Positions 1 through 9,372 of a DNA stretch of 30,663 bases are shown here, piece after piece. The DNA is from a virus. The stretch lies in IMG/VR virus record IMGVR_UViG_3300046167_000185, positions 1 through 30,663 of that record. One strand, 5' to 3'. The position numbers and the translations under genes were made by a program. A model generated the notes under the pieces. That model did no database searches and was not told where the DNA came from. It was given only the letters and a program-made list of their open reading frames with translations. Positions within the stretch are counted from its first letter, which is position 1. Every line of letters begins with the position of its first letter.

Positions 1-93
1 CTCGATCTCCTCGTCTAACGCCTTCTCCTGACGTGCTTCCAACGCCATCTCTCGAGCCTGTGGCTCTGGTTTCTTTGGTCTTAGTGCGCCCAT
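1..93 (-). CDS. N-terminal part of a small protein between terminase and portal (gene continues at 30663)
   Basis: The ATG at 93 opens 31 codons that run off the left edge (MGALRPKKPEPQ...LDEEIE). It is preceded by a GAGGTG ribosome site. The frame continues exactly into the right edge of the window, where 57 more codons lead to a stop at 30490. The joined protein would be 88 aa: a lysine, proline and acid-rich start, then an arginine-rich, Ala/Ser/Gly-rich tail. Small proteins of this make-up commonly sit between large terminase and portal in podoviruses; their function is unknown to me. The circular join is inferred from reading frame, not from overlapping sequence. Confidence 0.8.
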   Translation of the reverse strand, partial: MGALRPKKPEPQAREMALEARQEKALDEEIE

Positions 94-96
94 AAA

Positions 97-195
97 TCAC
101 CTCGTTAAGTGTTTGTACAATTGATACGGCGTGAGGATGAACGGGTTGCGTATCCCTATCGCCTGCTTGATATGCCCGACACATGTGTTGAGCAT
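97..195 (-). CDS. small hypothetical protein (32 aa)
   Basis: An ATG at 195 opens 32 codons (MLNTCVGHIKQAIG...) ending in TGA at 97-99, just before the ATG at 93. The stop region overlaps the GAGGTG ribosome site of the next gene, a usual sign of translational coupling. Its own ribosome site is weak (AGAAG). The middle contains RNPFILTPYQLY, which looks like a real folded segment rather than random frame. It fills an otherwise empty 118-nt gap in a very dense operon. I do not recognise a family; the ORF could be chance. Confidence 0.45.
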   Translation of the reverse strand: MLNTCVGHIKQAIGIRNPFILTPYQLYKHLTR

Positions 196-211
196 AAATA
201 AACTTCTATGA

Positions 212-433
212 TTATCGCGCACCTTGGCTTTGGCCACGATCACGTTTCCCTTCCGATGCGCTGAACTCATCCAACGTCATCAGATCCAGCCCCTCTGATG
301 TCTTGCCATACACAATCCACCGGCCTGCGTCAGCCTTCAACAAGTAACAATGTTGGTATAACGGATGCAATAGCGGTGACCACCAGTGGTGTCGTGCCGC
401 TGTGAACACAGCGTAAACGTTACCCGAAGACAT
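212..433 (-). CDS. conserved-looking phage hypothetical protein (73 aa)
   Basis: The start ATG at 433 lies 14 nt inside the end of the large terminase gene. The protein is rich in aromatic residues and histidine in its first half (HHWWSPLLHPLYQHCYLL) and ends in a charged Arg/Lys/Gly tail. The WW...HCYLL...WIVYGKT pattern suggests a small compact beta fold. It lies between large terminase and the small pre-portal gene in the late operon, so a role in DNA packaging or head assembly is plausible by position only. No function is claimed. Confidence 0.7.
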   Translation of the reverse strand: MSSGNVYAVFTAARHHWWSPLLHPLYQHCYLLKADAGRWIVYGKTSEGLDLMTLDEFSASEGKRDRGQSQGAR

Positions 434-1883
434 TGAACTGAACCTTCGCTGTTCGTGGTGCTCGGTGGATGTGCTGTGTGCTTATCGCCTGACGGCCCTC
501 ACCCTCGCCTTGTAGCGCGTACTCCAACGCCTCTACCGGGTGGCTGTACTCGTTCTTGTCCGGCTCATCAGTGTATTTGTCGCCCGACACTTGGATGCGA
601 CGGTAAGAGAAGCCGCCCTGCAAGCCCTTGCGTATCATCTTTGCCTTGGGACTGATCAGGAACCTAGGCTTGCCATCCATGCACAACTCTTTCATCGGCA
701 GTTCGAGCGCCGCTCTACGCAACGCGGGGTCATTCGTGAGGGTGGGAGTGCAGGGTATCCCAGCAGCACGCATGATCTTGAACGGTGTGTCAGCATTGGC
801 TTGGTTCTTGTTGTCACCGGACGGATCACCCCACCCACGGAACTTGAACTTCGGATAGTTGGCGTCGATGTATCGCTTCAGTGTTGGTGCGAAGTCCACC
901 GCCCCGCTGTCAGTCATGCAGAACTCATCGAAGCACACCCACCGACCGAGCGCATCACGCTGAACGAAGGCACACGCTGGTGTCCGCCCGAAGTCAAAGC
1001 CGAGCACAACGGGTGTATCGCTGTTCGGCTCGTAGCTATCGCCTGTGCAATGTATCGAGTCAGTGTACAGCGGATGCACTGGCTTGCCGCTTGAGACAAA
1101 GCCGTACTCGTTCGCCAAGTTAACCTTGATCCAATCATCTGTCTTACCCTGCAAGCCTCGACCATAGTAGTCCTCAGGCAGGTTGTGCAGGTTCTCCGCG
1201 CTCTCGTTCAGGTACCACCCGTCACCCTCTCGATACACACCACCCGGTTGCCGGTGAAACATCCAACCCTCTGGCCGGTCTTCTTCCGCCAGCTTGTAAT
1301 ACCAATGATCCTCGTCCGGTGCGTTGCTGTCACCGATCATGCCGTAGTGTGTAGGTCTCACACCCTCTTTCATTGAGGGATACCGGCCACATCGCAGGTC
1401 GAGCATGTCCACCACGCTCTTGCTGTGTTCCTTGGCTTCGTTCAGCCATGCCCAAGTTGTCTGAATGCCTCGTGCTTTCTTGACGTGATCAGGTCTGTCG
1501 AACGCGATGAAGATGACCTCGCTGCGTACCGTCGTTCCATCCTCCAACTTGAACTCAATCTTGTGGGTGGGCGGTTCCTTGTTGCCTTGCTTGAACTCAC
1601 CCAAGTCTCCATGCACCTCCAACCAATCCTTGATGGTGGTCGAGAACAACTCGCTATAGGTGTTCCGCGCAGCAATGATCCTACTTAACCTCACCCCGTG
1701 GTTTGGGTGCGCCTTCTGCGTCACCGGTGCCTGCTCGCACATCAACTCAAGAAACTTGAGGATGACTTGGACGGTCTTACCAGAACCCAACGGCCCCATG
1801 ATGAATGAGTTGCGTGACCGACAATCGGCAAACTCCTCCAGCACTCTCCCCTGCGGCTTCATGACGTACTCAATCGTCGCCAT
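420..1883 (-). CDS. terL: terminase large subunit (DNA packaging ATPase/nuclease)
   Basis: 487 aa from the ATG at 1883. A TTG at 1907 is in frame, but the ATG has a GAGAAAG ribosome site and gives a 14-nt overlap with the small subunit. The N-terminal half is an ATPase: Walker A GPLGSGKT at residues 30-37 and a Walker B-like WAWLNEAKE around 145-152, with Glu149 as the probable catalytic carboxylate. The C-terminal half looks like an RNase H-fold nuclease: GFDFGRT with Asp297, WGDPSGD with Asp353, and a late EYSHPVEALEYAL segment where a final metal ligand would lie. The protein cuts concatemeric DNA and drives it into the prohead through the portal. Length is normal for phage large terminases. 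The Walker A sequence has PLGSGKT rather than the commoner RGSGKS. Confidence 0.95.
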   Translation of the reverse strand: MATIEYVMKPQGRVLEEFADCRSRNSFIMGPLGSGKTVQVILKFLELMCEQAPVTQKAHPNHGVRLSRIIAARNTYSELFSTTIKDWLEVHGDLGEFKQGNKEPPTHKIEFKLEDGTTVRSEVIFIAFDRPDHVKKARGIQTTWAWLNEAKEHSKSVVDMLDLRCGRYPSMKEGVRPTHYGMIGDSNAPDEDHWYYKLAEEDRPEGWMFHRQPGGVYREGDGWYLNESAENLHNLPEDYYGRGLQGKTDDWIKVNLANEYGFVSSGKPVHPLYTDSIHCTGDSYEPNSDTPVVLGFDFGRTPACAFVQRDALGRWVCFDEFCMTDSGAVDFAPTLKRYIDANYPKFKFRGWGDPSGDNKNQANADTPFKIMRAAGIPCTPTLTNDPALRRAALELPMKELCMDGKPRFLISPKAKMIRKGLQGGFSYRRIQVSGDKYTDEPDKNEYSHPVEALEYALQGEGEGRQAISTQHIHRAPRTAKVQFNVFG

Positions 1884-2160
1884 CGAATCGCTTTCTCTGC
1901 ACTGCAATTACCAAGTCACCACCACCCTCACCCGTTACTTCAGTAGACTTTAGATCAGGAATAAACTTGGCCATCATCTTCAATGACAATGTAGCTGCGC
2001 TGTTCATGCGCTGTACTTCAACGGCGCTAAATTCCTGCCCCGGATCAAGCAAATTCCTAATAACATCATGCACATGCGCTTCGTACCCACTAGCCTCAAT
2101 CTTCTTACGCATCTCGTCTTGACGCAGTGCTCTGTTCAGTTGCGCTCTAGTCTTCGCCAA
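1870..2160 (-). CDS. terS: probable terminase small subunit
   Basis: 96 aa, directly upstream of large terminase with a 14-nt overlap, the standard position for the small subunit. It is mostly helical by composition, with a basic N-terminus (MAKTRAQLNRALRQDEMRKK) followed by helices suited to oligomerisation and a glycine-rich, charged C-terminal tail (GEGGGDLVIAVQRKRFDGDD). Small terminases bind the packaging start site and recruit the motor. Sequence identity in this family is always low, so the call rests mainly on position, size and helical make-up. Confidence 0.75.
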   Translation of the reverse strand: MAKTRAQLNRALRQDEMRKKIEASGYEAHVHDVIRNLLDPGQEFSAVEVQRMNSAATLSLKMMAKFIPDLKSTEVTGEGGGDLVIAVQRKRFDGDD

Positions 2161-2326
2161 GATTCCTCCTAAAGATCCTATCCCAGTTGTCTGCGAAATC
2201 AGATGGAGAGGTTTTGCCGCCCAGCCGGTTACGCGACCTTGGCCGATCCCCCTTTCCGCCGTGATCCCAATTCGGGAAGTGTTTTTCTTGATCCTTCTTG
2301 GGGATCTTGTGTCGATGGTCTGCCAT
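2147..2326 (-). CDS. small hydrophilic protein, first gene of the late operon (59 aa)
   Basis: The ATG at 2326 gives 59 aa starting MADHRHKIPKKDQEKHFP. The open frame extends further upstream to 2458, but that part runs through the intergenic promoter region and has no good start. The protein is very polar, with Lys/Arg/Asp/Gly patches (WDHGGKGDRPRSRNR) and a FADNWDRIF segment near the end. It overlaps small terminase by 14 nt. I recall short phage proteins with this DHGGKGD...NWDRIF outline near packaging or replication genes, but know no function. No strong ribosome site is visible in front of the ATG. Confidence 0.65.
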   Translation of the reverse strand: MADHRHKIPKKDQEKHFPNWDHGGKGDRPRSRNRLGGKTSPSDFADNWDRIFRRNLGED

Positions 2327-2366
2327 GTATCGCCAAATACCAGATTGATTAACGGATAGCAATGGA

Positions 2367-2372
2367 ATTATA
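2367..2372 (-). promoter_or_regulatory. possible -10 box for the leftward late operon
   Basis: On the minus strand a perfect TATAAT lies 41 nt before the ATG at 2326, in the divergent gap between the late operon and the 2440 operon. No good -35 box lies at 16-18 nt, so if it is used it may need an activator. It is the only consensus -10 box noticed ahead of the terminase genes. Confidence 0.4.
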
Positions 2373-2384
2373 CCTTGTTTTTTG

Positions 2385-2413
2385 TTGACACTGGTAAAAA
2401 TATAGTTTTTACT
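2385..2413 (+). promoter_or_regulatory. sigma70-type promoter for the 2440-3085 operon
   Basis: TTGACA at 2385-2390, a 17-nt spacer, then TTTACT at 2408-2413. The region from the -10 box to the start codon (TTTA..., then GCTTCAACAAC, a GGAG or GAGG ribosome site, and ATG) closely matches the region before the gene at 5976, which has its own TTGATA-17-TTTAAT. That internal repeat supports both calls. Between -10 and ATG there are only 26 nt, so the mRNA leader is short. Confidence 0.7.
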
Positions 2414-2439
2414 GGCTTCAACAACAACGGAGAACGGAT

Positions 2440-2667
2440 ATGGAACTGAACAACGCAATTGCAGAAATGGACTTGAGCAACCTCACCGACGAGCAGGTTA
2501 AAGTCATGATCCAACTGGCATGGTTTGCTGAGGATGGTTTTGATCAGGCAGCAGCAGTAGCAATTGGTCACGAACATCGCAAAGTACGCACCGCACTCGC
2601 TGGTCAGTGCATGGTGCTTCGCAACCGGCTAGGCCAAGAAAAACGAAACCGAGAGGAGGCCGCGTAA
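2440..2667 (+). CDS. hypothetical protein, first gene of the short rightward operon (75 aa)
   Basis: ATG at 2440 with a GGAG ribosome site 8 nt before it. The protein is helical and acidic in the first half (LSNLTDEQVKVMIQLAWFAEDGF) and basic at the end (RNRLGQEKRNREEAA). It has no membrane segment and no motif I can name. It is the first product of a promoter that resembles the main early promoter, so it is probably made early in infection. A regulatory or host-interacting role is possible but only guessed from position. Confidence 0.7.
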   Translation: MELNNAIAEMDLSNLTDEQVKVMIQLAWFAEDGFDQAAAVAIGHEHRKVRTALAGQCMVLRNRLGQEKRNREEAA

Positions 2668-2685
2668 GCGGCCCGGGGAGGAAGT

Positions 2686-2886
2686 ATGAAAGTACGAATA
2701 GACTTCACGATTGACGTTGACCCCAAGGTCATCCGCGCTTATATGGATGACATCGAAACCGACGAGACCATGAAAGAGTTTCTGGTGACGTGGTGCTCCG
2801 CCGCTGGCGCTGGGACGCTCGACGATAGTTTGCATAATGCCTTAAACGAATGGCACACCACAGGCATCGTGCGGCAAGACATATAG
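2686..2886 (+). CDS. hypothetical protein (66 aa)
   Basis: ATG at 2686, preceded by a strong GGGAGGA ribosome site, 18 nt after the previous stop. It begins MKVRIDFTIDVDPKVIRAYM, a beta strand then helix, and continues with an acidic helix (DDIETDETMKEFL) and a polar C-terminal half. Small phage proteins that start with this K-V-R-I-D-F-T-I-D-V-D outline are familiar to me, but I know no function. It is co-transcribed with the 2440 gene and the lipoprotein that follows. Confidence 0.7.
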   Translation: MKVRIDFTIDVDPKVIRAYMDDIETDETMKEFLVTWCSAAGAGTLDDSLHNALNEWHTTGIVRQDI

Positions 2887-2926
2887 GGGATCACATGAGT
2901 CATGTTGAATCAGTCAAGGAGAAAAA

Positions 2927-3085
2927 ATGAAACTACGATACCCCCTCGCCCTACTGCTGGTTGTTCTGATCTCTTGCGTCTCTGAGCAGGACTATCAGGA
3001 CGCGCTGCACGAAGAGGCAATCTACATTCAATCGGTCTGCGATGGTGTCCACGGGGACTACCTTAATCTGCGGCCTGCTTGCTGA
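2927..3085 (+). CDS. small predicted lipoprotein (52 aa)
   Basis: ATG at 2927 with an AAGGAG ribosome site. The start MKLRYPLALLLVVLISC is a typical lipoprotein signal: basic n-region, hydrophobic core and lipobox LISC, with Cys17 as the predicted lipidated residue. The mature part is only 36 aa, ends in Cys, and contains IYIQSVCDGVHGDYLNL. This Y..(S)VC.G....Y outline recalls short phage proteins of unknown function. It would sit at the inner or outer membrane. Superinfection exclusion is one known role for tiny phage lipoproteins, and an outer-membrane spanin is another, though it is far from the lysis genes and not proline-rich. Its 3' end overlaps the convergent gene ending at 3063 by 23 nt. 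Confidence 0.75.
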   Translation: MKLRYPLALLLVVLISCVSEQDYQDALHEEAIYIQSVCDGVHGDYLNLRPAC

Positions 3086-3221
3086 CCAGCCACACATTCT
3101 CTTTGTCCTGATCCTCCGGCTTCTCTGCCGGTGGGTTGGGATCGTCGATGTCCACCAGCTCAGTAATTATGACAGTCACTTGGGAATTATCGCTCAGATT
3201 CTCGATTGTGACGTTAGGCAT
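3063..3221 (-). CDS. small acidic hypothetical protein (52 aa)
   Basis: ATG at 3221 with a GAGGAG ribosome site 8 nt before it, overlapping the previous gene by 8 nt. The sequence begins MPNVTIENLSDNSQVTVIITEL, giving two probable beta strands, then a proline- and acid-rich linker (DIDDPNPPAEKPEDQDK) and ends WLVSKQAAD. It is the last gene of the leftward operon and converges head-on with the lipoprotein gene. Function unknown. The bases before its ATG (AGCGATTCGATG) are identical to those before the large terminase ATG. Confidence 0.7.
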   Translation of the reverse strand: MPNVTIENLSDNSQVTVIITELVDIDDPNPPAEKPEDQDKENVWLVSKQAAD

Positions 3222-3402
3222 CGAATCGCTCCTCTATGAATCTTTCCCTCGCTGTCAATGTGGCAAGGTCATTACAGGCTTCTTCCAACAGCTTGATGTC
3301 TTTGGTTCTAGCGTATTCCGTGAGCAACTGAACCACCCTCCCGCTCAGGAAGTTGAGTTGATTGGCTACGATGTAGGCCGATGGTTCTATCTCCTTCATC
3401 AT
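3214..3402 (-). CDS. hypothetical protein (62 aa)
   Basis: Start taken at 3402, where ATG overlaps the TGA of the phosphoesterase gene (ATGA). A further ATG follows directly at 3399, and the frame is open back to 3435. The protein is helical and amphipathic (AYIVANQLNFLSGRVVQLLTEYA, then KDIKLLEEACNDLATLTARERF). This suggests a helical hairpin. No family is recognised. It is translationally coupled to the metallophosphoesterase upstream and the 52-aa protein downstream. Confidence 0.7.
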   Translation of the reverse strand: MMKEIEPSAYIVANQLNFLSGRVVQLLTEYARTKDIKLLEEACNDLATLTARERFIEERFDA

Positions 3403-4379
3403 TCGTAGTCTACCCTGTGGATCTCCCCGCGCCACTCGTATTCACCGGCCTCGTGCTGGGAGTGAATTCGCACGAACTCAGGCTGTAACAACCAATTCTT
3501 TTTTATCGACAACAGCGCAAACCCGCTGCTCCAGTTGAGCGGAGCATCTTGAGTGTAATCGAACGACGGCTGGCTAGGCTCTGCCATCGTGCCCAACTGT
3601 ATGCCCAGTCTAGTGCCGGTGTAATCAGTGAACGCCTTAGCTTCTTGGTGATGGGTATGGCCGGTGACCGTGTGCGTGCCCGACATCAAAGTCGTTCTGT
3701 GTCCGCCGGTAATGCCCGCGCCGATTGGCTTGTGACGTATCATGATTGGCCGCTCCGCACCCTCAATCCATAGACTGATTGAGAATATCCACGCGGGGAA
3801 CTGCTCGCGTAGCGTGAATCCCGGCACCCCTTTGTACTGTGGCAAAGCGTCAGCCAGCTTCATGTCGAACCGAGAGTCGTGGTTACCCATCACCCAGTAG
3901 CGTTTTGAACTAGGCGAAGCCTTCTCGATCTCTTCCAGCCGTTGGTGGACAGCATTCAGTTCCTGCTCGACTGTCGGCCTCTCCTCCCACCCTAGTGGAG
4001 CGTGGCGACTAATGCTTGCGCCGTCCAGCAGGTCGCCATTCAGGACGATCACGTCAGGCTGTAGCTGTTTTGCCAACTCAACGAAGGCTAAGTGTGCGGT
4101 GGTGACTGTGTTGATTTCATAGTGCGCGTCTGATCCAACGAGGATCGTCATATCCTTCTCGACCTTCAAGGTCTGACGCACTGACGGGCGTGGTGTTTTG
4201 TCCCTCGACAGATGAGCGGGGACTGAGATGCTCCGGCCAAGCGCCTCTTCTGCCCTGCGCCGTCGATGGAATACGTTCCTGATACCTACATCATACCGGC
4301 TCGCCATGCCTTGAGCGCCGATTGATGAGAACTCGGTCGCAAACACTTCATTATCTTGCGGGAGCTTATTTTTGGCCAT
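3399..4379 (-). CDS. calcineurin-like metallophosphoesterase
   Basis: 326 aa from ATG 4379 (GGGGG-type ribosome site, 14-nt overlap with the gene before it). The canonical five-motif set of the two-metal phosphoesterase family is present in order: SDAH at 83-86, GDLLD at 115-119, GNHD at 165-168, a His in RHKP at 216, and GHTHH at 240-244. These residues hold the two metal ions that hydrolyse phosphoesters. The first 75 residues are a basic helical region (FHRRRRAEEALG) that may bind nucleic acid. The family covers nucleases, nucleotide phosphatases and phosphodiesterases; substrate cannot be told here. Lying just after NinG, it may act in recombination or host DNA/RNA processing (inference). 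Confidence 0.88.
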   Translation of the reverse strand: MAKNKLPQDNEVFATEFSSIGAQGMASRYDVGIRNVFHRRRRAEEALGRSISVPAHLSRDKTPRPSVRQTLKVEKDMTILVGSDAHYEINTVTTAHLAFVELAKQLQPDVIVLNGDLLDGASISRHAPLGWEERPTVEQELNAVHQRLEEIEKASPSSKRYWVMGNHDSRFDMKLADALPQYKGVPGFTLREQFPAWIFSISLWIEGAERPIMIRHKPIGAGITGGHRTTLMSGTHTVTGHTHHQEAKAFTDYTGTRLGIQLGTMAEPSQPSFDYTQDAPLNWSSGFALLSIKKNWLLQPEFVRIHSQHEAGEYEWRGEIHRVDYE

Positions 4380-4548
4380 CGAGTAATCCCCCACGCCTCG
4401 CGTAGTTGTTGGAGACGTGTGCAAAAACCTGCCGTTTTAATCCGTCGTCTCTCTCTCGCTTCGGCTCCGCATCCCACACCTCTTTCATCGCAGCGTCCAT
4501 TGCCTTGACCATGTCAGCAGCCACAGACCTTGGCGACCTCACCCGCAC
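4366..4548 (-). CDS. small hypothetical protein (60 aa), GTG start
   Basis: The start codon at 4548 is GTG and overlaps the NinG stop by 10 nt; the end overlaps the phosphoesterase start by 14 nt. It is a small charged helical protein (AADMVKAMDAAMKEVWDAEPKRERDDGLK) with an Arg/Gly-rich end (NNYARRGGLLDG). Nothing in it identifies a function. The tight overlaps on both sides and lack of another frame with better sense support it as a real gene. Confidence 0.6.
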   Translation of the reverse strand: MRVRSPRSVAADMVKAMDAAMKEVWDAEPKRERDDGLKRQVFAHVSNNYARRGGLLDGQK

Positions 4549-4961
4549 ACCCTGCGCTCATGCGCTTTAATCTGTTCTTCCCAGTCTGAAATCATCTCGC
4601 GGTAGTCCGAAACATAAAACTTTACCGAGTCTTTCTTCGTTGCCAGCATGTGCTCGACTGCGTCTTTGCCATACCAATCAATCATCCAGATCGTGTATTG
4701 CGCCTCTGCGCTCCCGTGCTTCATGCCGAACCCGTTACAGCCCCGGCACTGAGGATGCACATTCTGTTCCTCCAGCGCCCACCTCGATGACGAACCCTTG
4801 GGGATAAAGTGGCCGCCGTCTAGCTCTTTATAGTGTTGGATCTTGCCACACGACACGCAAGCCGCGAACCCTGAGTCATCGGCTGCACTGATTCTTGCAA
4901 GTTTTTGCAGGGTCTTCAATGCCTTGGCGCGGAGTGTTGCACTGGTTTGTTTCTTCGGCAT
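4539..4961 (-). CDS. ninG: NinG/Rap-type recombination endonuclease
   Basis: 140 aa from the ATG at 4961, which overlaps the previous stop as TAATG; the frame is open back to 5093 but that part overlaps the upstream gene. The N-terminus is basic (PKKQTSATLRAKALKTLQKLAR). A zinc-binding pair CVSCGK (Cys35, Cys38) and CRGCNG (Cys72, Cys75) flank DGGHFIPKGSSS, with His51 the likely catalytic residue. This is the HNH-like arrangement of lambda NinG (Rap), a structure-specific nuclease that aids recombination. It fits with the Rad52-type annealing protein in the other early operon. Length is slightly short compared with lambda NinG (about 200 aa). Confidence 0.85.
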   Translation of the reverse strand: MPKKQTSATLRAKALKTLQKLARISAADDSGFAACVSCGKIQHYKELDGGHFIPKGSSSRWALEEQNVHPQCRGCNGFGMKHGSAEAQYTIWMIDWYGKDAVEHMLATKKDSVKFYVSDYREMISDWEEQIKAHERRVCG

Positions 4962-5284
4962 TACACAATCCGGCGCTGGTTGGCTTGCTTTGTCTGCTCC
5001 GCTCGGAACTGTAGATCCAGCGCAGCCATCTGCTTCTTTGCCATCTCTACTCGGAGGTTTGATTCTGCAACTGCTTTGAAGTGTGCTGACCATTCGGGTG
5101 TGGCTTGGACTTCGACCTGTGCCTTAGCATGGCTACACCCCGCGTCCATGTGTGTCTTCGTTGATAAAGCCGTGTAAGACTTAAACGCTGTTTCATTGTC
5201 TATCGCTATTTGTGACCATTCCTCCCACTCCCCTAGCCTTTCACTGAGGCGATTGAGAATGCGATCTATCTTGTTTTCTTCCAT
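4961..5284 (-). CDS. hypothetical protein upstream of ninG (107 aa)
   Basis: ATG at 5284 with a GGGAG/GAGGG ribosome site. It is a fully helical, highly charged protein with probable coiled coil: ENKIDRILNRLSERLGEWEEW at the start, and NLRVEMAKKQMAALDLQFRAEQ near the end. The central AQVEVQATPEWSAHFKA segment looks conserved in phage proteins I recall beside single-strand DNA or recombination genes. Possible scaffold or DNA-binding partner of NinG; no firm function. First gene of the leftward operon. Confidence 0.7.
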   Translation of the reverse strand: MEENKIDRILNRLSERLGEWEEWSQIAIDNETAFKSYTALSTKTHMDAGCSHAKAQVEVQATPEWSAHFKAVAESNLRVEMAKKQMAALDLQFRAEQTKQANQRRIV

Positions 5285-5330
5285 TCCCTCACTCCCTTTT
5301 CTTTAGACATGCCGTGACATTTAGTGGGGT

Positions 5331-5356
5331 TTGGTGACCCACCAACAAAATTTATA
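5331..5356 (-). promoter_or_regulatory. possible -10 box and palindromic operator before the leftward operon
   Basis: On the minus strand TATAAA (5351-5356) is a good -10 box; the -35 hexamer at 17 nt is weak. Six bases further downstream is the perfect inverted repeat TTGGTG-ACC-CACCAA (5331-5345), which would overlap the transcription start. This is a typical place for a repressor site. The first start codon it would serve is at 5284. Confidence 0.45.
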
Positions 5357-5420
5357 TCGACAGACTGTATTTCCACTCGATCATTTCCCTGTATATGGAG
5401 GCTGACCCAGACCCGACCCA

Positions 5421-5451
5421 CTCCCCTGTCTATCTAAAAATAGAGGGGGAG
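5421..5451. other. strong hairpin in the intergenic gap
   Basis: Bases 5421-5433 pair with 5440-5451: five A/T-rich pairs next to a 6-nt loop, one bulged G, a T-G wobble and then six mostly G-C pairs. On the plus strand it is followed by GGTTTTG, a poor T tract, so it is only weakly terminator-like. No plus-strand gene ends here. It may be an RNA or protein-binding structure. Confidence 0.45.
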
Positions 5452-5590
5452 GTTTTGTCACCGTTTACGAGTGTTCCGTTTGGCGCTCCCACTAAAGCGC
5501 CCAGCTTTCTGTCAAATTGTCTTTGTTGGTCGTTTCGCTCAACGGGTCAACCACCCGCACGCTTTCGCGCCTCTGCCACCGAAGTGGAGC

Positions 5591-5610
5591 AAAAAAAAAG
5601 GGCCGACCCT
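5591..5610 (-). terminator. weak intrinsic terminator-like site after the YdaS-like gene
   Basis: In the minus-strand direction AGGG-TCGG-CCCT forms a 4-bp stem with a tetraloop, directly followed by a run of nine T. It lies 44 nt beyond the stop of the YdaS-like gene and would separate that transcript from the 5284 operon. The stem is short, so termination may be partial. Confidence 0.45.
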
Positions 5611-5653
5611 CTCACAACAGGGGAGGAGGAGAGGAAGAGGGCCGACCACAAAC

Positions 5654-5866
5654 TTAAACCGTCCAGCCTTCTAAAAAGATGTCCGGTCGCAAATCGTAAG
5701 GTTGCACTTCGCCATCAGACACTTGGCACAATTTAACCACGTGTATAGATGGTACCCCACTACGCCGCCAATGTTGAATCTGCTGTGGATATGTGTGCAT
5801 GGCCCGAGCCAACGCGCTCACACCGCCAGCCTTCACTCTTAACCTTTCAAATACTTCTGGATTCAT
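5654..5866 (-). CDS. Cro/YdaS-like DNA-binding regulator (70 aa)
   Basis: ATG at 5866 with an AGGAG ribosome site. The sequence reads as a compact helix-turn-helix: GGVSALARAMHTYPQQIQHWRRSGVPS at about residues 13-40, then a C-terminal YDLRPDIFLEGW. The last motif is characteristic of the YdaS/Cro-type family (YdaS_antitoxin), in which similar DLRPDIF endings occur. It should repress one or both promoters in the gap to its right (5879-5948). It stands alone, read away from the early operon, in the place where a lambda-type phage has its CI repressor. No second repressor, antitoxin partner or integrase is visible. Confidence 0.85.
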   Translation of the reverse strand: MNPEVFERLRVKAGGVSALARAMHTYPQQIQHWRRSGVPSIHVVKLCQVSDGEVQPYDLRPDIFLEGWTV

Positions 5867-5878
5867 TTCATTCTCCTG

Positions 5879-5948
5879 TTGACTGCCAACAGTACACTGA
5901 AAATAATTCGATTAAAAGCTTGATATGCTTAAAAGGTTCACGTTTAAT
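5879..5948 (+). promoter_or_regulatory. tandem early promoters
   Basis: Promoter 1: TTGACT (5879-5884), 17-nt spacer, AATAAT (5902-5907). Promoter 2: TTGATA (5920-5925), 17-nt spacer, TTTAAT (5943-5948). Both fit the sigma70 pattern. Promoter 2 and its leader match the promoter and leader at 2385-2440. Promoter 2 lies over the in-frame ATG at 5925, which argues for the downstream start at 5976. The segment AAGC-TTGATAT-GCTT (5917-5931) is a short imperfect dyad and may be part of an operator for the divergent YdaS-like protein. Confidence 0.7.
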
Positions 5949-5975
5949 AACGCTTCAACAACAGAGGAAAACGAT

Positions 5976-6350
5976 ATGTACGACGTACCAGATAGACCGA
6001 TTTCAGCCGACCCCAACTTCCAACGCATGTGGGGTGACGATGACCACGTTCACCAGATGGATGAAGTGGATGACAACGACACGCAGTTCAACCTGCATTG
6101 GTTCGGCATGGACGAGTACCTGTCGTTTGACAGCGGATTGATCGCCGACACCCGCGATGAGATGGATCGGCTTGTCGATCTGCTTCGCAACGAATGCGGT
6201 CTGGAGGTTAGTCAGCATCCCCATAACGGCGAAGAGTCAGACGTGCAGGGTGGGCTGGAAGATGCCGACGTTATTAACGGCAACCCAGCCGGTCAATACT
6301 TCATCATTGAACGCCGTCGAGTGATCGGTGTCGTGACGGAGGTACTGTGA
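5976..6350 (+). CDS. strongly acidic protein, first early gene (124 aa)
   Basis: Start chosen at 5976: a GAGGAAAA ribosome site precedes it and the earlier ATG at 5925 lies in the promoter. I count 29 Asp/Glu, 8 Arg and no Lys, a net charge near -21. The sequence has an acidic run (WGDDDHVHQMDEVDDND) and then a better ordered second half (DTRDEMDRLVDLLRNECGLEV ending in a beta segment, QYFIIERRRVIGVV). The stop overlaps the next start as GTGATG. Very acidic small early phage proteins sometimes mimic DNA and block restriction or other host DNA-binding proteins; that is a guess here. No family is recognised. Confidence 0.7.
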   Translation: MYDVPDRPISADPNFQRMWGDDDHVHQMDEVDDNDTQFNLHWFGMDEYLSFDSGLIADTRDEMDRLVDLLRNECGLEVSQHPHNGEESDVQGGLEDADVINGNPAGQYFIIERRRVIGVVTEVL

Positions 6351-6535
6351 TGGGCAGAGTAAAATCAGAAATGTTCCACGACGATCTTGGGCCGGACGAT
6401 GAGTTGGTACCTAAGCGCACCGGCGAAGACGTCCAAAAAGAAATAGAGGAATGCGACATCCCACGCGGCACGCAAGAACGACGAGAGTTTATGCATAAAA
6501 AGTTGAAGGAGTTGATTGAACATGTCAGCAAGTGA
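6350..6535 (+). CDS. small charged hypothetical protein (61 aa)
   Basis: ATG at 6350 overlaps the previous stop (TGATG), with GGAGG in front; a GTG at 6347 is an equal alternative. The protein is very hydrophilic (EMFHDDLGPDDELVPKRTGEDV, then RREFMHKKLKELIEHVSK), with a probable C-terminal helix. Its last 14 nt overlap the annealing-protein gene, so the two are probably coupled. Function unknown; it might act with the Rad52-type protein. Confidence 0.65.
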   Translation: MGRVKSEMFHDDLGPDDELVPKRTGEDVQKEIEECDIPRGTQERREFMHKKLKELIEHVSK

Positions 6536-7127
6536 AATCTACCACGCGCTCAGTAGGCCGTGGGCTAAAGGAGAAGTGAAAGAACGTAAAGGGCCGGGCG
6601 GTAAGATGCTGTCTTACGTTGATGCCCGCCAAGTCCAGAACCGATTGGACGAAGTCGTTGGTACGGAGAACTGGCAGACACATTTCTCGGAAGTCTGCGG
6701 TAATTACTGCTGCACCCTCTCTGTGAAAATAGATGGGGAGTGGATAGCCAAGTCAGATGGTGCCGGTGAGACCTCAATCGAAGGCGACAAAGGCGGTTTC
6801 AGTGACGCATTCAAACGCGCCGCTGTGTCCTTCGGTATCGCTCGGTACTTGTACTCAGACTCGGGCATGACACCCGAGCAATTCGACAAGCGCCGTGGCG
6901 TTATGGCTGACGTTCAGTCAGAAGATCCAGCCACCGTACCTAACGAAGCAGACAAGATGTTGGCAAACGAACTCGCGCAGGCAGTACAGAGCGAGAACAA
7001 AGAAAAAATCCTAGAGATCTGGGCCAGCCTTGTGACCGATCAGGAACGAACCGTGGCGACGTGGTCACTGATTGGAAGCCAGACCCGAACATACATAAAG
7101 AAAACTGTGAAGGAGAACCAGCAATGA
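6522..7127 (+). CDS. Rad52/22-type single-strand annealing protein
   Basis: 201 aa from ATG 6522, with AAGGAG 10 nt before it (a TTG at 6516 is also in frame). Family marks are clear: SYVDARQVQNRLDEVVG (about 31-47), a WQTHFSEV strand, DGEWIAKSDGAGE, and the signature KGGFSDAFKRAAVSFGIARYL at about 90-110, typical of the Rad52_Rad22 fold in phage annealing proteins. It would coat single strands and anneal them during recombination-dependent replication or repair. The C-terminal 70 residues are an acidic linker and helices (EADKMLANELAQAVQSENKEK) and may bind the SSB-like protein. It lies in an operon with the SSB-like gene; no exonuclease partner is seen beside it. Confidence 0.92.
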   Translation: MSASEIYHALSRPWAKGEVKERKGPGGKMLSYVDARQVQNRLDEVVGTENWQTHFSEVCGNYCCTLSVKIDGEWIAKSDGAGETSIEGDKGGFSDAFKRAAVSFGIARYLYSDSGMTPEQFDKRRGVMADVQSEDPATVPNEADKMLANELAQAVQSENKEKILEIWASLVTDQERTVATWSLIGSQTRTYIKKTVKENQQ

Positions 7128-7516
7128 AACCCAAACACGGATTCTCGAAAGAGATCTATACAATCGTGAAGGCGGACGGGCCACTCGCCTACAGCGGCAT
7201 TCACGCCCGATTGAGGCAGCGCAGTGTGCGGATGTCAAAAGACCAAGTGCTGAAAACCCTCAGCAACATGGTGCAGCGGAATCAGCTTGTGCGCTCAGAG
7301 CGCAACCCGAAGAAGTTTGTGGTCGTGGGGTTTGATGAGAACGTGATTGTCTCCGACCCTGTACCAACCCCTCCCGCTGTGGAGAAAACCCCTGAGATCG
7401 CAGAATTACCCCCTTCTGAGGGACTTACACAGTTAGATTCAACAGCGATCACGATGATCGCAGCCATCGCGGCAGGCACCGCCGCACTCACCACAATTAT
7501 TTTGAGGTATTTATGA
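7124..7516 (+). CDS. winged-helix protein with C-terminal membrane anchor (130 aa)
   Basis: ATG at 7124 overlaps the annealing-protein stop (ATGA) and has AAGGAG in front; the frame is open upstream to 7061 but that part overlaps the annealing gene. Residues 8-70 read as a winged helix: SKEIYTIVKADGPLAYSGI, a recognition-like helix (SKDQVLKTLSNMVQRNQLV), then a basic wing (RSERNPKKFVVVG). A Pro/Glu-rich linker (80-100) leads to a hydrophobic stretch at about 108-128 (TAITMIAAIAAGTAALTTII), which fits one membrane segment. A DNA-binding head tied to the membrane is unusual in a replication/recombination operon. It may anchor phage DNA or the recombination complex to the membrane (inference). 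Confidence 0.7.
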   Translation: MKPKHGFSKEIYTIVKADGPLAYSGIHARLRQRSVRMSKDQVLKTLSNMVQRNQLVRSERNPKKFVVVGFDENVIVSDPVPTPPAVEKTPEIAELPPSEGLTQLDSTAITMIAAIAAGTAALTTIILRYL

Positions 7517-7803
7517 GCGATAAAAAACGCGAATTCGCAAACGGCCTATACGTCAAGGAGCCTTGGCCTAATTCGCCGGATTGGGTGAAATTTCGTATTA
7601 ACATTAACAGGGAACAACTGATGCCTTGGCTGCAAAGCACAGAGACCGACAACGGCTGGATTAATTTAGAGGTGAAGCTCAACCAGAAAGGTGAATTATT
7701 TGCTGACGTGAATCGCGGCAAGAAAGGACAGCAGGCTCCGCAGCCAGCGCAGCCAGCCAAGTCGAATCCGTTTGAATCTCTGGACGAGGATATACCTTTC
7801 TGA
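7513..7803 (+). CDS. SSB-like single-stranded DNA-binding protein
   Basis: 96 aa, ATG at 7513 overlapping the previous stop (ATGA). The body contains alternating strands (WVKFRININREQLMPWL, NGWINLEVKLNQKGELFADV), followed by a Gln/Pro/Ala linker (GQQAPQPAQPAK) and the acidic tip SLDEDIPF. That tip is the hallmark by which bacterial SSB proteins bind replication and repair partners. The core is shorter than a full SSB OB fold and I do not see the usual aromatic set, so it may be a divergent phage SSB or a protein that only borrows the tail. Position next to the annealing protein supports a role on single-stranded DNA. Confidence 0.7.
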   Translation: MSDKKREFANGLYVKEPWPNSPDWVKFRININREQLMPWLQSTETDNGWINLEVKLNQKGELFADVNRGKKGQQAPQPAQPAKSNPFESLDEDIPF

Positions 7804-7921
7804 TTCTATTGTGTGGCGGGAAACTTTCCGGGCAGGCGAGCGCCAGCGTCAGCCTCCCGTAAGGGATATGAGAATCAGATGGTGTGCTTGTGCCCGCATT
7901 GATTCACACATCAACACCATC
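7801..7921 (+). promoter_or_regulatory. structured intergenic element (two closed inverted repeats, GNRA-capped hairpin)
   Basis: Bases 7801-7807 (TGATTCT, including the SSB-like stop codon) pair perfectly with 7871-7877. Inside this closing stem are GGAA-ACT-TTCC (about 7820-7830), a bulged hairpin AGGC...GCCT (7834-7855), and TCCC-GTAA-GGGA (7855-7866), a 4-bp stem with a GNRA tetraloop. Directly after comes GATGGTGT (7878-7885) pairing perfectly with ACACCATC (7914-7921). The next gene starts 28 nt later. It could be an mRNA leader that controls the helicase-loader-like gene, a processing or termination structure, or a replication origin. It matches no RNA family that I recognise. Confidence 0.55.
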
Positions 7922-7948
7922 AACTGGCGCACTTAACTAAGGAAAGAC

Positions 7949-8416
7949 ATGATTGAGAAAGAAGACTTCACGCGGCTGTATAAACCATTCTTCCAGCTTC
8001 ACCCGTTCAAGAAACGGGACTGGCCGGACGGGTTGGGCGAAGTACATTACAAAGCATTCTGCCGTGACAGCCCCGCCCTCATGCAAGAAGCGATGGGCTT
8101 GTTGGTCGAGAAGCTAGACCACTTCCCAACACCCAAGGACATACGGGCGCAGATCACCGCACTCAGTACATCAAAGAGTGAGGGCAACGAAGGCAAGACC
8201 AACGGCACCAGCATTAACGAAGAGATAGCTACGCGCTACCTCGAGCACAAGCATGGCGTGGAGTACAACGGTAAGCCAGTGCCGTGTCCTGACCCTCTTC
8301 CGTCGTGGATTAAACAAGAGGTTGACCGGGTTGATGACATGCTCGGCCCGCAGTTCCCCATTAAATCTAAGCTAGGAAACGTAGGCTTTGCCATTGTCCA
8401 AAAGGAAAACCGATGA
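7949..8416 (+). CDS. possible replication protein (helicase-loader-like), 155 aa
   Basis: ATG at 7949 with AGGAAAG in front. The N-terminal 75 residues have the outline of small phage helicase loaders: an aromatic start (YKPFFQLHPFKKRDW), a helix with regular spacing (ALMQEAMGLLVEKL), then DHFPTPKDIRAQI, a motif that I associate with loader/inhibitor proteins of the G39P type. A polar Ser/Gly/Thr/Asn linker follows (TSKSEGNEGKTNGTS) and a C-terminal helical part. The phage has no helicase or polymerase gene, so a loader that takes over the host helicase would make sense. This is an inference from pattern and position; an unrelated function is possible. Confidence 0.45.
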   Translation: MIEKEDFTRLYKPFFQLHPFKKRDWPDGLGEVHYKAFCRDSPALMQEAMGLLVEKLDHFPTPKDIRAQITALSTSKSEGNEGKTNGTSINEEIATRYLEHKHGVEYNGKPVPCPDPLPSWIKQEVDRVDDMLGPQFPIKSKLGNVGFAIVQKENR

Positions 8417-8604
8417 ACGACGCACTCAAAGAATTCTTAGCCAACGGTGGTGAGATTCAGCAGCTACCATCGAATGTGCCACGCGACTTGAACGTCTGCC
8501 TGAATTGTAAGAACCTATTCCCCACAGCGGAGATGACCAAGGGTAGCCAGCGCCGATGCAAGAAGTGCCACGAGAGACACACGAACTTCAAGACGAGCCG
8601 GTAG
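8413..8604 (+). CDS. small zinc-ribbon protein (63 aa)
   Basis: ATG at 8413 overlaps the previous stop (ATGA). The C-terminal half carries CLNCKNLF (Cys36-x2-Cys39 region) and RRCKKCHERH, two CxxC pairs about 20 residues apart, which should bind one zinc ion. The N-terminus (LKEFLANGGEIQQLPSNVPRDL) resembles the short regulators of many phages that carry a ...FLANGG.I..LP motif. A DNA- or RNA-binding role is likely; the exact partner is unknown. Basic residues around the second knuckle fit nucleic-acid contact. Confidence 0.7.
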   Translation: MNDALKEFLANGGEIQQLPSNVPRDLNVCLNCKNLFPTAEMTKGSQRRCKKCHERHTNFKTSR

Positions 8605-8837
8605 ACTTGTTTTACAAAGCCATCAAAGCGCAAGAAAGACTGCAGCGTGAGTATCTCGATTACAGGTTAGCCAACGTCAGCGCCCCGTTCAGTGAGGCAA
8701 CCAAGCGGCAGATATGGGAATGGCAACGTCAAAAAAAGACCACTCGGTGGATTGCGGACGAACTGAAGGTGACACGCTACAAGATTCACCTGCTAGTTAA
8801 GCGGACATCGTGGCCTGCGCCGACGAACCTAGCCTAA
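8556..8837 (+). CDS. helix-turn-helix protein, last early gene (93 aa)
   Basis: The frame starts with ATG at 8556, 49 nt inside the zinc-ribbon gene and without a good ribosome site. TTG at 8607, just after the previous stop, is an alternative that would give 76 aa. The C-terminal half reads as a homeodomain-like HTH: SEATKRQIWEWQRQKKT followed by RWIADELKVTRYKIHLLV. Last in the early operon, it may be a late-gene activator in the manner of lambda Q or other end-of-operon regulators; this is a guess from position. Its stop codon overlaps the convergent 29-aa late gene by 4 nt. Confidence 0.65.
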   Translation: MQEVPRETHELQDEPVDLFYKAIKAQERLQREYLDYRLANVSAPFSEATKRQIWEWQRQKKTTRWIADELKVTRYKIHLLVKRTSWPAPTNLA

Positions 8838-8923
8838 AACAATATCGAGGCGAACCAGACAGCCACGAAGATACCGGCGATCATAGCTGCCACGCAAACC
8901 ACACTCCCTAACAGCGGCTTCAT
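8834..8923 (-). CDS. single-span membrane micropeptide (29 aa)
   Basis: ATG at 8923 overlaps the TGA of the gene before it (ATGA), giving MKPLLGSVVCVAAMIAGIF... and ending in TAG at 8834. Almost the whole peptide is one hydrophobic helix with a short basic N-terminus. It is the last gene of the long late operon, next to the lysis cassette. Small single-span phage peptides can act as holin modulators or pinholin-like proteins; no such role is proven here. The length makes a chance frame possible, but the exact ATGA coupling supports it. Confidence 0.55.
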   Translation of the reverse strand: MKPLLGSVVCVAAMIAGIFVAVWFASILF

Positions 8924-9372
8924 ATCTGGAAGATCAGCCAGATAGCGAGCATGATAGCGATGGGGATGAGGCCAACAGAGACAGCGATGACAATGGCTAG
9001 CTGGGTTAGCTCTTTCTTCCTGCGCTTTCTAGCCAACTCCAACTGGCGGATCTCAGCAGCCCTAGCCTTGCGAGCCTCGGCCATTGCCTTCATCGCATCG
9101 TCCCACAACTGACCGTTGCCCGAATAAAGGAATGCCTCGCGCACTTGTGCTAACGCATCGTCAGCTTCCTTCTTCGCTAACTGCGCTTTGACAGCATCGG
9201 CTGCGCTGAGTGTCTTGGTGTTTTGTAGTCTTTGTAGATCGTGCTGACCCTCGGCTAGTGCGGATAGGTAGCCACTGATCTGGCTGAGGTCTTGAGTTGC
9301 TTGAGCCGTTTTGTTTAGAGCAGAGGCGGCCATGTTAAGGCCACTGATGATAGCCCCTAGCTCAAGAACCAT
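8920..9372 (-). CDS. hypothetical protein with C-terminal membrane helix (150 aa)
   Basis: ATG at 9372. The N-terminal 120 residues are helical and polar with Ala-rich stretches; the segment VREAFLYSGNGQLWDDAMKA is striking, and I recall similar segments in proteins of unknown function in marine phages. Residues about 100-120 are very basic (EIRQLELARKRRKKE), followed by a 25-residue hydrophobic helix (LAIVIAVSVGLIPIAIMLAI...). This is a tail-anchored topology. It follows the endolysin by 3 nt, so a role in lysis or membrane-associated assembly is possible. No catalytic motif. Confidence 0.7.
   Translation of the reverse strand: MVLELGAIISGLNMAASALNKTAQATQDLSQISGYLSALAEGQHDLQRLQNTKTLSAADAVKAQLAKKEADDALAQVREAFLYSGNGQLWDDAMKAMAEARKARAAEIRQLELARKRRKKELTQLAIVIAVSVGLIPIAIMLAIWLIFQI

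Follow-up and report, generated by a model that had tools for sequence, protein, structure and literature searches.

Early transcription of phage lambda is controlled at OL/OR, where one small repressor gene has a divergent early promoter beside it and a second early promoter lies at a distance. Related palindromes are present at each of these promoters, including the repressor's own. There are three per promoter, and CI and Cro compete there. Repeats of early promoter sequences also occur in the promoter-early stem-loop (PeSL) cassettes of T4-type phages, reportedly described by Arbiol et al. in 2010 at sites of accessory-gene shuffling.

Divergent promoters in the cryptic prophage CP-933P contain inverted repeats to which YdaS binds, and the protein also regulates one promoter elsewhere (PMC8630535). 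The ydaS gene shares an operon with ydaT and faces the CI-like PaaR2, and the repeat is 18 bp with GTTTAGTAA half-sites (PMC8630535). In cluster K mycobacteriophages, the start-associated sequence (SAS) is a 13-mer (GGGATAGGAGCCC) located just upstream of the start codons of many genes per genome. About half of the SAS/ESAS copies have an added upstream inverted repeat, which differs by subcluster (PMC3203893). The locus described here has parts of these known kinds: lambda OL/OR, CP-933P YdaS, cluster K SAS, and T4-type PeSL.

The window, defined here as the whole stretch of DNA analysed, is IMG/VR virus record IMGVR_UViG_3300046167_000185. It is 30,663 bases in length and comes from an uncultivated small phage. 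Its terminase is closest to that of Burkholderia phage BcepC6B (51% identical) and is also close to contigs in gammaproteobacterial MAGs. A near-identity DNA search of isolated phages with the window gave no match, and a 38-nt leader query returned chance-level matches only. No integrase was recognised among the window ORFs, so the purpose of a repressor may be timing or lysogeny. Two rightward operons are separated by a leftward block containing a metallophosphoesterase, a NinG-like protein, and a 70-aa YdaS-like regulator. The operons and the regulator are as follows.

2440..3085, + strand, rightward early operon A; small genes 2440-2667, 2686-2886, and 2927-3085, the first gene exchangeable
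5654..5866, - strand, 70-aa YdaS-like (Cro-type) regulator, the proposed repressor; Pfam and PHROG matches
5976..8837, + strand, rightward early operon B; 5976-6350, 6347-6535, Erf/Rad52-like 6516-7127, and further genes, from ORFs

The operons are presumed early because of their gene content, namely the Erf/Rad52-like protein in the second block (PHROG 1097 Erf-like, E 6e-35; Pfam Rad52_Rad22, E 8e-17). The regulator falls within Pfam YdaS_toxin (PF15943, E 3.3e-11) at 43.3 bits, above the cut-off of 30, and matches PHROG 35, transcriptional repressor (E 1.5e-12). Below its gene, at 5596-5640, is a leftward terminator-like hairpin with a T run, adjoining a direct repeat, GGGCCGACC, and a leader-resembling string, CTCACAACAGGGGAGG.

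Each rightward operon is preceded by a cassette, C1 for operon A and C2 for operon B, composed of these elements.

2385..2390, + strand, C1 -35 box TTGACA, from sequence; TTGAC[AT] kept in C1 haplotypes of the window's own group
2408..2413, + strand, C1 -10 box TTTACT, from sequence; TATAAT or TTTAAT at the same place in relatives
2414..2439, + strand, C1 discriminator GGCTTC and predicted 5' UTR AACAACAACGGAGAACGGAT, kept across relatives; predicted start A2420
5920..5925, + strand, C2 -35 box TTGATA, from sequence; TTG core retained by most relatives within the group
5943..5948, + strand, C2 -10 box TTTAAT, near-invariant among C2 haplotypes of the window's group
5949..5975, + strand, C2 discriminator and predicted 5' UTR, kept across relatives; predicted start near A5957

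The order at C1 is TTGACA, 17 nt, TTTACT, 1 nt, GCTTCAACAAC (2415-2425), GGAGAA, and the ATG at 2440. At C2 it is TTGATA, 17 nt, TTTAAT, 3 nt, GCTTCAACAAC (5952-5962), AGAGGAA, and the ATG at 5976. Direct reading agrees with the initial annotation on this order and on the positions. That annotation also described the distances as almost the same, which needs a small correction for the spacing from the -10 box to GCTTC, 1 nt at C1 versus 3 nt at C2; most relatives have the shorter of these two spacings at their C2. The C1 intergenic region (2327-2440) is shared with divergent leftward terminase genes. It contains a block, TGATTAACGGATAGCAA, that is kept among relatives and may be part of a late promoter or leader.

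The exact 11-mer GCTTCAACAAC is present at two places only in the window, C1 and C2. An ungapped 22-nt match between the cassettes (GCTTCAACAACAACGGAGAACG and GCTTCAACAACAGAGGAAAACG) scores highest among 1,128 pairs of 55-nt upstream regions, at 29 against 23 for the next pair and a mean of 11.8 (sd 2.2). Only 1 of 20,000 shuffles of C1 reached this score, in keeping with the earlier statement that the leaders are more alike than chance. The accompanying suggestion of a duplicated unit does not extend to a fresh copy, as only the boxes, the palindrome, and the leader are alike in the window and the rest of the promoter cores differs. A simple promoter scan of the window did not list C1 or C2 because their -10 boxes (TTTACT and TTTAAT) are weak. 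An alternative promoter, TTGACT-17-AATAAT at 5879-5907, was rejected; its -10 box is not kept in L017, L018, L026, and L109.

Relatives were fetched using the Erf-like, terminase, 5976, and phosphoesterase proteins, with the leader left out of the query, plus one leader-pattern scan. The leader is present before each rightward early operon in at least 20 genomes, the opposite of the pattern named at the outset as damaging, in which relatives would keep only one cassette. C1 was not located in a few loci (L172 and L173), and some C1 leaders have diverged (example, CATCAGCAACGGAG in L165). Profiles built from C1 only and from C2 only, the latter with L115 in its training set, each find most sites of the other position. 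Inspection by eye gave no sign of within-genome concerted evolution of C1 and C2.

The constant leader, read from the -10 box, is composed of GGCTTC, then ACACAACA or AACAACA(AC), then GGAG or GAGG, then ATG. The transcription start is predicted at the A of TTCA because of the usual distance from the -10 box, which would make GGCTTC the discriminator and leave ~20 nt transcribed before the ATG. Between cassettes in which neither the first gene nor the promoter core is related, leader identity is 0.74 versus 0.47 for shuffled leaders, part of the 0.74 being built in because the search rule requires CAACA-like and Shine-Dalgarno strings. The promoter cores of those pairs are 0.30 identical. Other contigs, searched with a comparable rule, gave leaders 0.51 identical, and few of this kind. 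C2 leaders read next to the repressor gene, and so free of that selection rule, contain the same constant leader.

The leader is short and probably unstructured. The predicted 5' ends fold no better than shuffles (z-scores of -0.9 to 1.1), and Rfam gave no match in window positions 1-9000; the RNA element once proposed for the leader is not supported. The leader may act in translation, giving the mRNA a 5' end of about 20 nt that is free of structure and well translated. A coding role was considered, since several relatives have an open frame upstream at C2 (NASTTEEND before M), and was rejected because L006 and L115 have lost it. On the minus strand, the leader of the YdaS-like gene itself (5864-5885) is GTCAACAGGAGA; it is conserved and thus also has a CAACAGGAG start.

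Three candidate operators can be placed in the window.

2395..2411, + strand, C1 candidate operator TAAAAAT-ATA-GTTTTTA, matching at 6 of 7 pairs and lying over the spacer and -10 box
5930..5946, + strand, C2 candidate operator TAAAAGG-TTC-ACGTTTA, matching at 5 of 7 pairs and lying over the spacer and -10 box
5898..5914, no strand assigned, possible third site TGAAAATAATTCGATTA, weaker, in the repressor-proximal part of the intergenic region

The initial annotation had raised the possibility of a shared operator in the leader. A shared palindrome is present at both promoters, and its place is the spacer and -10 box, upstream of GCTTCAACAAC, rather than the leader. A symmetrised matrix made from C2-type sites only ranked C1 first of 61,326 window positions (18.1, next 10.8), and one made from C1-type sites only ranked C2 first of 61,326 by a small margin (10.2 versus 9.4); likeness of palindromes within the group is inflated because they are AT-rich and share the -10 box, which is 4 of the 17 palindrome positions. 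Across the window, L014, L018, and L141, the C2-trained matrix ranked C1 first in all four, and the C1-trained matrix put C2 at the top in three, L018 being the exception with C2 third. The C1 and C2 spacers agree in register, with 8.2 of 16 identities versus 4.9 under column permutation (p 0.0002), and dyad symmetry is highest at a single axis (p 0.003, uncorrected for the 11 axes). A free palindrome search of each region alone was not significant. The third site is the 4th-ranked window match for the C1+C2 matrix (score 8.0) and is 32 bp from the C2 site; a shuffle test per region was not significant for it. The C1 spacer is 18 nt long in L004 and L026, and the C1 palindrome of these two is poorer. 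At the DNA level, these comparisons leave the shared-operator idea well supported, and a palindrome common to both promoters fits joint control by the YdaS-like protein.

A sister group of genomes encodes a YdaS-like protein about 38-41% identical to that of the window. Its palindrome, TAMACY-N3-RGTKTR, was matched 70 times across 536 kb; almost every match is at one of three promoters, C1, C2, or that of the repressor itself, and genomes often have three. The pattern was drawn up after inspecting some promoters, so the presence of matches there is not independent, while their near-absence elsewhere is. The own-promoter site is 47-61 bp from the C2 site, and the C2 site of L197 is a perfect palindrome, TAAACT-CAA-AGTTTA. 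Three of the five other matches are C1 promoters with a diverged leader, and the remaining two, in L172 and L173, are at unassigned places. The usual leader does not stand behind the palindromes of these two genomes (L172 3018-3032, L173 2292-2306), which are of the TACACT-N3-GGTGTA type.

The place of the regulator is occupied by four types of YdaS-like protein. TAAAA-type palindromes occupy C1 and C2 in groups I (which includes the window) and II, and in group III the TAAACC type is found at all three promoters, C1, C2, and that of the repressor; palindrome type thus goes with repressor type in groups I-III. Group IV (L164, L168, L175, and L199) has another YdaS-like protein and keeps a TAAACC-type palindrome at C1, and its C2 has a different promoter without a full palindrome copy. 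Because C2 lacks that copy, control in group IV would not be matched unless its protein also reads the C1 site, and group IV is the main exception to joint control. A Fisher test of C1 type against C2 type gives p 0.0002, with counts tallied by hand and relatedness ignored. An additional strong group I palindrome match is located away from C1 and C2 in L018 (16021-16037, TAAAAACATTGTATTTA, score 15.5). Operator type changing with repressor type, with one mismatched group, amounts to a natural experiment on circuit exchange between phages.

The first genes behind the leader vary at C1 and C2 and can be sorted into 22 families. Four are found at both positions (MAI[TR]NN, MTSSKT, M[EK]TTSYY, and the 2440 family), the 2440 family being at C2 in L161 and L168. 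The window and L004 are identical in gene and leader and differ in a promoter core of roughly 35 bp. Averaged over pairs, leader identity tracks the promoter more closely than the gene: it is 0.83/0.79 when the promoter is shared and 0.55/0.69, equal to unrelated pairs, when the gene is shared. It is conceivable, though we hold it doubtful, that C1 and C2 are two matching sockets of operator, promoter, and constant leader, with genes shuttling between sockets or phages via leader homology, possibly helped by the Erf/Rad52-like protein. If so, an accessory early gene landing behind either leader would at once be repressor-controlled and translated alike.

C1 and C2 are quite likely host sigma70-type early promoters under one phage regulator, with shared palindromes and a constant leader. 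The sequence evidence consists of both copies in relatives, leader constancy, the palindrome at both promoters, its near-restriction to three promoters in the sister group, and gene exchange; protein binding, repression, transcript starts, timing, and a role of the leader in translation are what we infer. Upon infection, host RNA polymerase would fire both promoters, each of which has an imperfect 15-17 bp palindrome over the spacer and -10 box. The YdaS/Cro-like protein (5654-5866, leftward) would be made from its own promoter and accumulate. It would then most likely bind both palindromes and the weaker site at its own promoter, blocking RNA polymerase at the two early operons together and at its own promoter too. 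Joint repression and joint release of C1 and C2 are predicted from the sequence. The leader (GGCTTC, a start in CAACAAC, a Shine-Dalgarno sequence, and ATG) would give both operons the same transcript and translation start, staying constant while promoter types and first genes change.

The likeness could also arise without a common regulator, if these are ordinary strong promoters whose discriminator, A/C-rich start, and Shine-Dalgarno sequence are alike because of host sigma70 and ribosome preferences. The leader does stay alike when promoter and gene differ, and in L114, a phage contig that is AT-rich and unrelated, two promoters start similarly (TATAATGGCTTCAACAACATAGG and TATAATAGGACTCAACAACACAGGAG). 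We regard this as unlikely, since few such leaders occur in other contigs and it leaves unexplained the register match of the spacers, the palindrome cross-ranking, and the near-exclusive three-promoter palindrome of the sister group. The L114 promoters (1360-1390 and 6175-6207) have TCAACAACA starts, which suggests that such starts are favoured more widely.

Somewhat less probable still is a leader that serves mainly as a recombination joint for swapping promoter blocks or first genes between phages and loci, perhaps through Erf/Rad52-like annealing. The 22 first-gene families, with four at both positions, and the gene and leader common to the window and L004 across differing promoter cores fit such a joint. 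Breakpoints, however, are not concentrated in the leader, because the leader goes with the promoter and a shared gene adds nothing, and the 20-nt identity is short. Control after transcription, by a phage factor or small RNA binding the leader RNA (GCUUCAACAAC) of both operons, appears very improbable: GGCTTC..CAAC is strongly conserved in the window's group, but GGCTTC is not transcribed under the predicted start, the segment before CAAC changes in relatives L147, L170, and L191, and neither a structure nor an Rfam match was found.

Joint control by the YdaS-like protein would offer a testable circuit, with named operator positions and a named regulator, for a phage group represented here by metagenome sequences only. 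Reading on from the leader at either locus would allow a systematic harvest of early accessory genes, which are often the place of anti-host and anti-defence functions.

As in lambda OL/OR, the YdaS-like gene (start at 5866, leftward) is divergent from an early operon (C2 ATG at 5976, rightward). A palindrome common to two early promoters and the repressor's promoter is present in sister-group genomes; the window has it at C1 and C2, and the third site is weak. Unlike lambda, the two early promoters of the window have the same direction, and one palindrome per promoter and one regulator gene, of Cro/YdaS size, were found in place of several operators and a CI and Cro pair. No CI was recognised in the window.

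CP-933P and the window both have a YdaS-family HTH protein, divergent promoters with inverted repeats (in a region of roughly 100 bp in CP-933P), and a further promoter elsewhere. The YdaS-like gene of the window, unlike ydaS, stands alone and opposite an early operon. CP-933P YdaS is the nearest tested precedent. SAS/ESAS and the window leader are both conserved sequences just before the start codons of different gene families, but the leader differs from GGGATAGGAGCCC and has two copies only, each tied to a promoter, and it is not a SAS. Unlike PeSL, the window has no stem-loop, its two loci are fixed, and the palindrome is within the promoter. A limited literature search did not find described a same-direction early promoter pair with one operator type, a constant leader, and exchangeable first genes. 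The best reading of the sequence is a layout like that of lambda OL/OR with an interchangeable gene slot added, in which two same-direction early promoters would be under one YdaS/Cro-like protein.
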